From Acaryochloris sp. IP29b_bin.137 (GTDB taxonomy: Bacteria > Cyanobacteriota > Cyanobacteriia > Thermosynechococcales > Thermosynechococcaceae): 45,083 bases of DNA. The stretch's first letter is position 1. Every line of letters starts with the position of its first letter. Of the stretch, positions 36,250 through 42,024 are shown one piece after another. The stretch spans positions 1 through 45,083 of the forward strand of contig NZ_JANQOP010000251.1 of the NCBI RefSeq assembly GCF_028285745.1, given 5' to 3'. Both the position numbers and the translations under genes were made by a program. Below the pieces are notes generated by a model. The model had not been told where the DNA came from. It worked only from the letters and a program-made list of their open reading frames with translations, and ran no database searches.

Positions 36250-36585
36250 ATGCAACACGTTTGTTCTACCTCTCCCGAATTAGTTTTTGCTGGTTTTCAT
36301 GCCCTCGCTGACCCTCTCCGTACCCACGTTTTAGAGCTCTTACGCCATCGAGAGCTTTGTGTTGGTGAGTTATGTGAGTCTTTGGACATTAATCAGTCTA
36401 AGTTGTCATTCCACTTAAAAGTTCTCAAAGATGCCGAATTAGTCCATACGCGCCATGAAGGCCGATGGATTTACTACAGTCTCAACCTGCCGCAGTTCGT
36501 GGTCCTGGAGCAATATCTAGCAGAATACCGTCGCAATTCGGAAATTATGCCTCCCCGGATGTATGCTTCCCCCACGACTCCGTGA
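36250..36585 (+). CDS. ArsR/SmtB-family transcriptional regulator
   Basis: A 111-residue winged-helix repressor-type protein. The wHTH reads FHALADPLRTHVLELLRHRE, then LCESLDINQSKLSFHLKVLK as the recognition helix, and HTRHEGRWIYYSLN as the wing. In arsenite-responsive ArsR the metal site is ELCVCDLC (three cysteines). Here it is ELCVGELC with Cys37 and Cys42 but Gly39, plus an extra Cys5 near the N-terminus. The inducer may therefore be a different metalloid, or sensing may use Cys5. It lies 125 bases upstream of a methyltransferase on the same strand, a natural target, but no operator was identified. Confidence 0.88.
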   Translation: MQHVCSTSPELVFAGFHALADPLRTHVLELLRHRELCVGELCESLDINQSKLSFHLKVLKDAELVHTRHEGRWIYYSLNLPQFVVLEQYLAEYRRNSEIMPPRMYASPTTP

Positions 36586-36709: not shown

Positions 36710-37339
36710 ATGGTTAATCAGTGGACGACGGCTGATCACGCATTGGATTATCTCGCGAGAGCGGATCAAATTCCTCACCGCACAGAGGGGGAAGCAGTTT
36801 TACTTGCCCATGTCCCTAAAACGGCGCGACGACTGTTGGATTTGGGGACTGGCGATGGGCGCTTGTTGGCCCTGCTCAAACTTGATCGCCCTGAGGTTGA
36901 GAGCCTTGCCGTTGACTTTTCTCCAACCATGCTAGCAGCTGTCCGGCAGCGTTTTGCGGATGATCTGCGAGTCACCATTCTGGCGCATAATCTGGACAAT
37001 CCACTGCCACCTGTCGGAACATTCGATGGGATTGTCTCCAGTTTTGCGATTCATCATCTCTCCCATCCCCGTAAGCAGTCGCTTTATCAAGAAGTCTTTG
37101 ATCGCCTAGAGCCAGGTGGAATTTTTTGTAATTTGGAGCATGTCGCTTCGCCCACCCTGAGACTACATCAACAGTTTTTACAGGCGATTGGCTACACTCT
37201 GGCAGAAGAAGATCCGTCTAACCAGCTCTTAGACGTTGAAACTCAACTCGGATGGCTCAGGAGTATTGGCTTTGAGGATGTGGACTGCTACTGGAAATGG
37301 CTGGAGATGGCTTTGTTAATTGGGGTAAAACCTCTATGA
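36710..37339 (+). CDS. Class I SAM-dependent methyltransferase
   Basis: A 209-residue methyltransferase. Motif I is RRLLDLGTGDGRLLALL, motif II region VESLAVDFSPTML, motif post-II DGIVSSFAIHHLSHPRK, motif III LEPGGIFCNLEH. The C-terminus (LLDVETQLGWLRSIGFEDVDCYWKWLEM) matches small-molecule methyltransferases such as those acting on carboxylates. It lacks the cysteine set expected of arsenite methyltransferase ArsM, so arsenic chemistry is unlikely. Its stop overlaps the start of the next gene (ATGA), indicating translational coupling. It follows an ArsR-type regulator. Confidence 0.85.
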   Translation: MVNQWTTADHALDYLARADQIPHRTEGEAVLLAHVPKTARRLLDLGTGDGRLLALLKLDRPEVESLAVDFSPTMLAAVRQRFADDLRVTILAHNLDNPLPPVGTFDGIVSSFAIHHLSHPRKQSLYQEVFDRLEPGGIFCNLEHVASPTLRLHQQFLQAIGYTLAEEDPSNQLLDVETQLGWLRSIGFEDVDCYWKWLEMALLIGVKPL

Positions 37340-38037
37340 AGCTGCCTGCCCAGCGAGTTAGGTCTGGGGCTCCATGGGAGGCACAGGTGGGATATTGTCG
37401 TGCGATTCGAGTTGGTAACCAGATTTATCTTTCAGGGACAGCTCCTGTGGATGCTCAGGGACAGGTCGTTTCTACGGATGGTTATGCTCAAGCTAAACGG
37501 TGCCTAGAGATCATCCAAACAGCATTGCAGGAGTTAAAAACAGATACTCATGCGATTGTGCGAACTCGCATGTTTGTCACCGATATTTCTCAATGGGAGG
37601 CATTTGCGCAGGCGCATCAAGAATTTTTTGGGGCCCATCCTCCAGCAACCACGATGGTTCAGGTTAGTGCGTTGATTGATCCAGCCATGCTGATTGAAAT
37701 TGAAGCAGATGCAATTTTCCCTGAAGATAGGTCTGCGTCAATGGTTACGGCCCAAGCGTGTCAGAACATGGCCGATATTCGAGCTGCCATTGATCAGCTT
37801 GATGCCCAGGTGATTAAGCTGCTGGGGCAGCGGTTCGAGTATGTGAAAGCAGCGACCCAGTTCAAAAGCAATGCCCAAAGTGTCCGAGCGCCTGAGCGTC
37901 TGCAGGCAATGATGCAACAGCGACGGCAATGGGCTGAGGCTGTTGGATTAGATCCAGATGTTATTGAAAAGCTTTATCGAGATTTAGTGCAATATTTTAT
38001 TGAGCTTGAATTAGCCGATTGGCATTCGTCTCAGTAG
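37336..38037 (+). CDS. RidA-like domain fused to a type II (AroQ) chorismate mutase / PchB-like domain
   Basis: A 233-residue fusion. Residues 1-130 are RidA/YjgF: VRSGAPWEAQVGYCRAIRVG, NQIYLSGTAPVDAQG, HPPATTMVQVSALIDPAMLIEIEADAIF. The residue corresponding to the catalytic Arg of active RidA (PARS) is Thr. Residues 144-230 match AroQ-type mutases, closest in pattern to isochorismate-pyruvate lyase PchB: MADIRAAIDQLDAQVIKLLGQRFEYVKAA, QFKSN, SVRAPERLQAMMQQRRQWAEAVGLD, and FIELELADW. Arg and Lys residues matching PchB Arg14, Arg31 and Lys42 are present, while the equivalent of Gln90 is Glu. The ATG overlaps the stop of the upstream methyltransferase, so they are translationally coupled. The expected chemistry involves chorismate or isochorismate, which is inference. 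Confidence 0.85.
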   Translation: MKLPAQRVRSGAPWEAQVGYCRAIRVGNQIYLSGTAPVDAQGQVVSTDGYAQAKRCLEIIQTALQELKTDTHAIVRTRMFVTDISQWEAFAQAHQEFFGAHPPATTMVQVSALIDPAMLIEIEADAIFPEDRSASMVTAQACQNMADIRAAIDQLDAQVIKLLGQRFEYVKAATQFKSNAQSVRAPERLQAMMQQRRQWAEAVGLDPDVIEKLYRDLVQYFIELELADWHSSQ

Positions 38038-40917: not shown

Positions 40918-42024
40918 ATGGCAATCCTTGAACAGGATCGTTTTGATCAACAACTCCTAGACCTTGTAAACCAGGAACGCGAATCTCGCGGGCTGAGACC
41001 CTTACAACTCAGCCAGAATCTTGATCAAGCTGCTGATCAGTATTCAGCTCGCATGGCGACGGGTGACTTTTTTGCTCATAGAGATCCAGAAACGGGGACT
41101 AGCGCTGGAGATCGCATTGAAGCGGCAGGGTATACTGGCTGGTCCACATGGGGGGAGAATATTGCTGCAGGGCAGACAACCCCAGAGGAAGTTTTCAATG
41201 CTTGGATGGGCAGCTCTGGGCATCGGGCCAATATTCTAAATCCTAATTTCACGCACATGGGCATTGGCTATGATTTGCTTGAAAACGATACTGGCAATCA
41301 GCGCTACTCCCACTACTGGACTCAAGTGTTTGGTGCCGGGGGGGTAACAGGTACCTATGTTGCTCAGACCGATGGCAATACGACCGCAGATAACCCCTCC
41401 AATCCGAATACCCCGCCTGCCCCTGTTAATCCCCCACCGACCGAACCCGTTGATGAACCGCTGGTGGGGACTCCGGGCAACGACCGACTCACGGGTACAG
41501 GCAGCAATGACAACATGTTTGGTCGTGACGGGAATGATATCCTGCGGGGACAATCAGGCGGCGATATGCTTTACGGAGAAGCTGGACGGGATAGGCTCTA
41601 TGGGGATGCTGGTGCCGATCAGCTATATGGCGGACTTGATAATGACACCCTTTGGGGTGGTGCCGGAAAAGATACCTTGACGGGCGTAGATACAAATTCA
41701 CCCAATTCAGCTTCCCAGGTAGATGTGCTAGTGGGTGGACAGAATGCAGATACGTTTGTCTTGGGAGATGCATCAACAGTTTTCTACGACGATGGCATCG
41801 ACAACACCTATGGTACAGATGGTTATGCTTACATCTATGACTTTCAGGGTGCCCAAGGGGATCAAATTCAATTGTCAGGGGGTGTGGGTGACTATCGTCT
41901 CCAATCCTACGGCTCAGGCCAGATCCTGTTTCTCAATACGCCGGGACTGGATGAAGTCATTGCTTTTATTGCTAATACCGATAGTCTGAGCTTGACCGAT
42001 TCAGCAGCATTCACGTTTGTGTAG
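40918..42024 (+). CDS. CAP (SCP-like) domain protein with RTX calcium-binding repeats
   Basis: A 368-residue protein. Residues 8-140 form a CAP/SCP domain with the conserved His and Glu residues in FFAHRDPETG, WGENIAAG, TPEEVFNAWM and GHRANILNP. A Pro/Asn-rich linker follows. Residues about 180-260 contain RTX nonapeptide repeats (GGxGxDxxx type), for example GRDGNDILRG, YGEAGRDRLY and GGAGKDTLTG, which bind calcium. There is no Sec signal peptide, and RTX proteins usually leave by a type I secretion system via their C-terminus, so extracellular location is likely. No secretion genes are adjacent. The function of bacterial CAP domains is mostly unknown. Confidence 0.88.
   Translation: MAILEQDRFDQQLLDLVNQERESRGLRPLQLSQNLDQAADQYSARMATGDFFAHRDPETGTSAGDRIEAAGYTGWSTWGENIAAGQTTPEEVFNAWMGSSGHRANILNPNFTHMGIGYDLLENDTGNQRYSHYWTQVFGAGGVTGTYVAQTDGNTTADNPSNPNTPPAPVNPPPTEPVDEPLVGTPGNDRLTGTGSNDNMFGRDGNDILRGQSGGDMLYGEAGRDRLYGDAGADQLYGGLDNDTLWGGAGKDTLTGVDTNSPNSASQVDVLVGGQNADTFVLGDASTVFYDDGIDNTYGTDGYAYIYDFQGAQGDQIQLSGGVGDYRLQSYGSGQILFLNTPGLDEVIAFIANTDSLSLTDSAAFTFV

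Follow-up and report, generated by a model that had tools for sequence, protein, structure and literature searches.

A Conserved Rid-AroQ Fusion Protein in Acaryochloris and Its Possible Isochorismate Lyase-Like Reaction

The window considered here, namely, the whole stretch of 45,083 nucleotides (positions 1 to 45,083 of contig NZ_JANQOP010000251.1) from Acaryochloris sp. IP29b_bin.137, contains a forward-strand ORF (37336..38037 including the stop codon; coding to 38034) for a 233-residue protein in which a Rid domain is fused to a PchB-type AroQ domain, as supported by the ORF itself, by Pfam and NCBIfam matches and by three Acaryochloris orthologues. The Rid (YjgF/YER057c/UK114) domain spans residues 1-130 (37336..37725, + strand), contains a match to Ribonuc_L-PSP (PF01042; residues 15-127, 94.2 bits) and is related to the solved structure 3i7t. 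A poorly conserved linker (residues 131-136; 37726..37743, + strand), delimited by alignments and by a dip in model confidence, leads to the AroQ domain (residues 137-233; 37744..38034, + strand), which was assigned using NF005475, an alignment with PchB and a table of residues, and which matches CM_2 (PF01817; residues 148-225, 70.7 bits). Upstream lies a gene encoding a 209-residue class I SAM methyltransferase resembling CysG, BelI and MM_2633 and containing His115-His116 (36710..37339, + strand), assigned by Pfam (Methyltransf_25, 63 bits) and by its nearest structures. Its stop codon overlaps the start codon of the fusion gene in an ATGA stretch (37336..37339, + strand). Further upstream is a gene for an ArsR/SmtB-family regulator (36250..36585, + strand; 93.5 bits, NCBIfam cut-off 55), considered here as a neighbor only. 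The presence of the two domains in a single polypeptide and the ATGA overlap, both described in a first-pass annotation of this DNA, were confirmed.

An AlphaFold2 model of the fusion protein, generated from an input alignment of 36 sequences, returned a mean pLDDT of 90.0 and a pTM of 0.61, the pLDDT being lower around residues 131-140. As such, the protein is predicted to comprise two well-formed domains, the relative placement of which is unsure. The fusion is a new architecture built from two known families. No description of a Rid-PchB fusion was found in the open-access literature searched, although one may be in print elsewhere.

The full-length fusion was detected in three of the six other Acaryochloris genomes (G386, G389, and G390) at 76-81% identity, and hence in four of the 29 genomes of the order, that of the window included, all four being Acaryochloris. 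In the remaining three Acaryochloris genomes (82-92% complete), neither half was detected at E 1e-15, while G400, from the same family, encodes a free AroQ relative. No uninterrupted two-domain match was found in the 385 other sampled cyanobacterial genomes, such that the genome of the window was the only one among 386 to present one. Outside Acaryochloris, the two halves are encoded in the sampled cyanobacteria by separate genes, with a Rid relative in 16 genomes, an AroQ relative in 12 and both in only one (G308), where Rid matches of at least 43% identity over most of the domain and AroQ matches of at least 46% were counted (G203 by its AroQ part), with weaker matches, the partial matches of G280 and G101, and G103 at 34% being left out. 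Matches that run past the linker (e.g., G056 18-159, G002 20-145, and G203 114-231) cross stop codons. Given that relatives of the two halves co-occur in a single one of the 385 genomes, the identity of the fusion partner provides no independent functional link.

A pattern scan of genome_contigs, which retrieves close relatives only, yielded 10 loci, two of them full-length and both from Acaryochloris. L040, where the match appeared to extend into the AroQ domain, was rejected as a fusion, since the ORF stops after the Rid domain. The corresponding scan of viral_contigs, again for close relatives only, revealed no fusion, nor did any of 560 matching plasmid records contain one place covering at least 80%. 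For the Rid half, dN/dS (Nei-Gojobori) was 0.05-0.14 in all six pairs; for the AroQ half, it was 0.06-0.15 in five of six pairs, the sixth (L047-L048) being saturated at synonymous sites. These 11 of 12 domain-by-pair values (0.05-0.15) point to purifying selection on both halves, and are rough, as several pairs are near synonymous saturation. Since three further genomes carry the undisrupted fusion (76-81% identity) and dN/dS is low, neither chance nor an assembly accident accounts for its existence. The fusion is thus real, conserved and, among the genomes sampled, found in the genus Acaryochloris only. The search for the same domain order across cyanobacteria, as proposed in the first-pass annotation, accordingly revealed conservation within the genus and not in the 385 genomes beyond it.

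The AroQ half passed the cut-off of the NCBIfam isochorismate lyase model NF005475 (133.6 bits; cut-off 126). Among the matches listed, the best chorismate mutase equivalog model reached 49.9 bits (cut-off 273) and the second, TIGR01799, 49.6 bits (cut-off 95.9), while TIGR01803 ("chorismate mutase family protein") was narrowly missed (72.4 vs. 73.35). Pseudomonas aeruginosa PchB (2h9c, 2h9d, 3hgw, 3rem, and 3ret) aligns with fusion residues 137-231 (81.5 bits). The two share Arg14, Arg31, Lys42, and Arg53 (PchB numbering), kept in the fusion as Arg149, Arg166, Lys177, and Arg188, the first three of which are ligand-binding residues in PchB, together with a pocket presenting Ala51, an aliphatic residue at position 55 and an aromatic residue at position 87. 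Indeed, Ala185, Leu189, Phe221, and Ile222 of the fusion are of the lyase type, positions 51, 55, and 87 being Ala, Leu, and Phe in the fusion vs. Ala, Val, and Tyr in PchB, and the positions of Asp48 and Glu52 of the Escherichia coli AroQ chorismate mutase are taken by Ala and Leu. According to a 2025 study (PMC12329711), positions 51, 55, and 87 are connected with mutase vs. lyase activity, mutases mostly presenting Asp at 51 and Glu at 55, and selection for mutase activity having favored a small residue at 87. In the same study, activity was confirmed for PchB alone among six annotated lyases.

Where PchB contains Gln90 (Gln91 in the numbering of PMC12329711), the fusion contains Glu225. 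In a table of 20 aligned and distinct sequences, comprising the window, the three other fusions and 16 free AroQ relatives, Arg14, Arg31, Lys42, and Arg53 were present in all 20, as was Glu at the Gln90 position. Likewise, all 20 contained Ala or Ser at position 51, an aliphatic or aromatic residue at position 55 and Phe or Tyr at position 87, with no acidic residue at 51 or 55. The first-pass annotation was therefore right in noting that the mutase half keeps its Arg/Lys contacts and bears Glu at the Gln90-equivalent position. Because this Glu is fixed, the replacement marks a clade rather than decay; because Gln90 (91) is replaced, the AroQ half would be said to work like, and not to be, a PchB. 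Moreover, unlike the fusion, PchB has no N-terminal Rid domain, and no pyochelin-type cluster was seen in the window. Judged by these residues and profiles, the AroQ half resembles an isochorismate lyase more closely than a chorismate mutase.

The genome itself encodes an AroH-type mutase (CM_1, 148.2 bits), as do all six other Acaryochloris genomes, such that phenylalanine and tyrosine synthesis does not require an AroQ mutase. It also encodes four chorismate-binding enzymes, two of which lie above the TIGR00543 isochorismate synthase cut-off, with one of these being followed by menD. Given this arrangement, the isochorismate substrate should exist in the same genome. The second isochorismate synthase (L099, L103; G000:C204) scored 345.7 bits against a cut-off of 224.75. 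The possibility that this enzyme is dedicated to the fusion was rejected, since the six other Acaryochloris genomes match it at 33-36% at best. The other genes on its 8-kb contig, named by eye, look efflux-type.

Turning to the Rid half, the best sequence match among solved structures was Mycobacterium tuberculosis Rv2704 (3i7t; 80.9 bits), which was also the closest fold (TM 0.96 by target length) among the best 50 of 777 matches. As these 50 were Rid proteins, the fold search did not confirm the AroQ half. Like the Rid half, Rv2704, which the PDB names by family only, has Thr aligned at the position of the catalytic Arg; unlike the fusion, it is a stand-alone protein. The Rid half shares its fold and an EIE stretch with the RidA imine/enamine deaminases. 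However, where these contain catalytic Arg105, the fusion contains Thr105, aligned with the Arg of PARSCVEV in the YabJ chain (5yu2), and the Rid half falls below the TIGR00004 cut-off (68.1 bits; cut-off 106.25). The first-pass annotation had recognized this Thr correctly, and the Arg associated with imine hydrolysis is thus missing from the Rid half. In a report addressing this family, an Arg-to-Ala change in RidA nearly abolishes imine hydrolysis, subfamilies Rid4-Rid7 lack the catalytic Arg and are separated from predicted imine hydrolases, and Rid proteins are typically trimers (PMC4433059). By description and alignment, the Rid half is a candidate for Rid5/Rid6, portrayed there as presenting a variable residue at the Arg position and a kept Glu.

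Rid domains are also fused to aldo/keto reductases on two Rhodobacterales plasmids (L112:2885-4372 and L113:2900-4375), where the genes follow those for branched-chain amino acid ABC permeases. There, as in the Acaryochloris protein, a Rid domain (41-42% identical) is joined to a metabolic enzyme, suggesting that such fusion recurs; by contrast, the Rid domain is C-terminal and the partner is an aldo/keto reductase. The nearest free Rid relatives (67-69% identical) are found in two bacterial MAG records (L039 and L040), behind an HpcH/HpaI-type aldolase gene named by eye.

In the most likely reading, one that still falls somewhat short of an even chance, the AroQ half is predicted to catalyze an isochorismate lyase-like reaction. 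The enzyme would take isochorismate from the MenF-type synthase encoded in this genome and eliminate pyruvate to yield salicylate, with protonated Glu225 standing in for the Gln of PchB. The replacement of Gln by Glu suggests that the reaction would be favored at lower pH, as is that of the yeast chorismate mutase, which contains Glu at the same position. The Rid half would serve not as an imine deaminase but rather as a trimerizing module able to bind small carboxylates. AroQ proteins form intertwined dimers, and as Rid trimers would here be combined with AroQ dimers, a hexamer, in which two Rid trimers are bridged by three AroQ dimers, or a larger assembly would be expected. The methyltransferase could well act on a substrate other than the fusion product. 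Near the fusion, no gene for the use of salicylate was identified. Against a lyase reaction stand this negative result, the Glu-for-Gln replacement, a change at a catalytic position, the narrow miss of TIGR01803, the low identity of the second isochorismate synthase to its counterparts in the other Acaryochloris genomes, and the genomic contexts of most stand-alone AroQ relatives, which point to NAD genes. The fusion offers a natural test of what Rid proteins lacking the catalytic Arg do and of whether lyase-type AroQ proteins outside the pseudomonads make salicylate, while the Glu-for-Gln clade provides further candidate lyases with one telling active-site change.

The recurrence of free AroQ genes beside nadE represents a second lead. 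Within the phylum sample, 12 genomes contain a free AroQ gene, which lies directly before nadE in eight of them; in seven of these eight, it is immediately preceded by nadD and a Nudix-regulator-like gene, all on one strand (NAD-cluster loci: L051, L053, L056, L057, and L058, also L012, L015, L023, L025, and L027-L030). These eight represent two genera belonging to different families, with the other seven AroQ proteins being 58-83% identical to the L051 member. At L051, the annotated genes encode nicotinate phosphoribosyltransferase, nicotinate-nucleotide adenylyltransferase, isochorismate lyase (129.1 vs. 126 bits) and NAD+ synthase, while the product of the Nudix-regulator-like gene matched an ADPR-responsive repressor only weakly (122 bits; cut-off 400). 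Siderophore salicylate does not explain the place of AroQ beside nadE, such that a role other than this is conceivable.

One could accordingly propose that the AroQ half, as a member of a clade in which Glu is fixed (20 of 20), acts on a different substrate or in the sensing of NAD supply, with the fusion being the Acaryochloris form. This is rather unlikely, given the isochorismate-type pocket of the AroQ half and the fact that NAD neighbors were absent from the flanks, some of them short, in the other four of the 12 genomes, in G400, at three Bacteroidota loci (L044, L046, and L114) and around the Acaryochloris copies. Furthermore, AroQ-type enzymes are not known to be required for any step of an NAD pathway. 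The more elaborate version, in which a Glu-for-Gln clade of lyase-type AroQ proteins would serve NAD supply rather than siderophore salicylate and would, in Acaryochloris, form part of a putative trimer-times-dimer cage, where a non-hydrolytic Rid domain holds a keto-acid product, seems distinctly improbable.

Similarly improbable is an auxiliary chorismate mutase, in which the AroQ half would generate prephenate and the Rid half would protect from reactive by-products. Such a role would agree with the AroQ family match in Pfam and with the weak mutase activity reported for PchB itself (PMC12329711). It would also agree with the Glu at this position in the yeast enzyme. It is, however, at odds with the lack of an acidic residue at position 51 or 55 in all 20 sequences, with the listed chorismate mutase equivalog models all being under their cut-offs, with the AroH mutase of the genome and with the absence of the catalytic Arg from the Rid half.

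Slightly less probable again is that the protein arose by neutral read-through of two neighboring genes, with the halves still acting independently. Met136 (codon 37741-37743), which closes the linker, occupies the start position of stand-alone AroQ relatives in the fusions of the window and G389, yet is absent from those of G386 and G390; both halves match free proteins in size, and no signal of Rid and AroQ co-occurrence was seen elsewhere. Nonetheless, each of the four copies found retains the two halves joined in one frame, and these copies fall to either side of a split in the methyltransferase tree that has weak support. While no fork in that tree reaches starred support, its shape hints at an early gain of the fusion followed by losses.

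The ATGA overlap is identical in all four fusion-bearing genomes (the window, G386, G389, and G390), and the two proteins are probably co-translated. At the same time, the methyltransferase is present in all seven Acaryochloris genomes, vs. four for the fusion, although its sequence is divided into two parts in both G387 and G388. In G388, it abuts the ABC permease gene at the same clpP/ABC locus with no fusion in between; the frame shift in the G388 methyltransferase, being accompanied by one in the ABC neighbor, may reflect an assembly error. The clpP side of this locus is likewise found in G387 and G391. Relatives (63-77% identity) occur in 19 of the 385 other cyanobacterial genomes, where the 1.5-kb flanks matched neither half; six of the 19, all from one genus, carry an AroQ relative elsewhere in the genome. 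The methyltransferase thus accompanies the fusion in all four genomes where the latter was found, yet a role as its dedicated partner is not supported, and this independent distribution makes action on the fusion product unlikely.

The nearest solved structures of the methyltransferase are the CysG/BelI carboxyl O-methyltransferases (9fcd and 9fce) and MM_2633 (3dtn). In 21 aligned methyltransferases, that of the window included, a His-His pair, PxR and an Asn are kept. The pair corresponds to His122-His123 of the CysG His122-His123-Asp191 metal site, a Ca site shared by CysG and BelI, and was found in all 21. By contrast, the CysG segment containing Arg187 and Asp191 is opposite a gap of 12 residues, and His167 aligns with a different residue. 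Numbers from the CysG paper were mapped onto the chain using a single offset of 14, which fits His122, His123, His167, Arg187, and Asp191. In that paper, CysG and BelI methylate a carboxyl group, and His167 and Arg187 of CysG are substrate contacts by docking (PMC11408123). The possibility that the methyltransferase is a CmoA-like Cx-SAM synthase using prephenate was rejected, as TIGR00740 gave only 30.3 bits against a cut-off of 193.3.

In G386, G389, and G390, gene order is two divergent clpP-type genes, the methyltransferase, the fusion and a convergent ABC-transporter permease gene (clpP and ABC named by eye), with G390 containing one further ORF before the methyltransferase. In these genomes, a search of the ~5 kb preceding the pair found neither ArsR nor the transglutaminase-TPR gene that lies before it in the window. 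As these two genes occupy the place of clpP in the window, ArsR is most simply a newer neighbor. The first-pass annotation had placed it just upstream of the pair, which is so in the window; however, it is judged not to belong to the unit, and control of the pair by ArsR was rejected, as ArsR was not found beside the pair in the three other fusion genomes. A further two ArsR-like genes, of 38-42% identity, are located in L050 and L052 but not next to the pair.

It is therefore very unlikely, and the least probable of the alternatives, that the fusion yields salicylate or a related acid for esterification by the coupled methyltransferase under ArsR, despite the constant ATGA overlap, the carboxyl-methylating nearest structures and the kept His-His pair, given the missing ArsR at three loci, the fusion-less methyltransferases of G388 and the 19 genomes, in six of which the AroQ relative lies elsewhere, and the unconserved CysG substrate contacts. 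As the methyltransferase belongs to a separate family found mostly without either half, the proposal that the cluster makes and methylates an aromatic acid is unsupported. The first-pass interpretation as a whole was thus partly supported, with its cluster-level elements, ArsR control and methylation, not borne out.

Among 22 fusion-less methyltransferase loci, the commonest neighbor is a cupin gene, found at seven (L074 and L080-L085); it lies before the methyltransferase relative at six loci from one genus and behind it in L074. Elsewhere in the window, positions 40918-42024 encode a CAP/SCP-like protein, the C-terminal part of which carries Ca-binding RTX-type repeats, as identified by eye.
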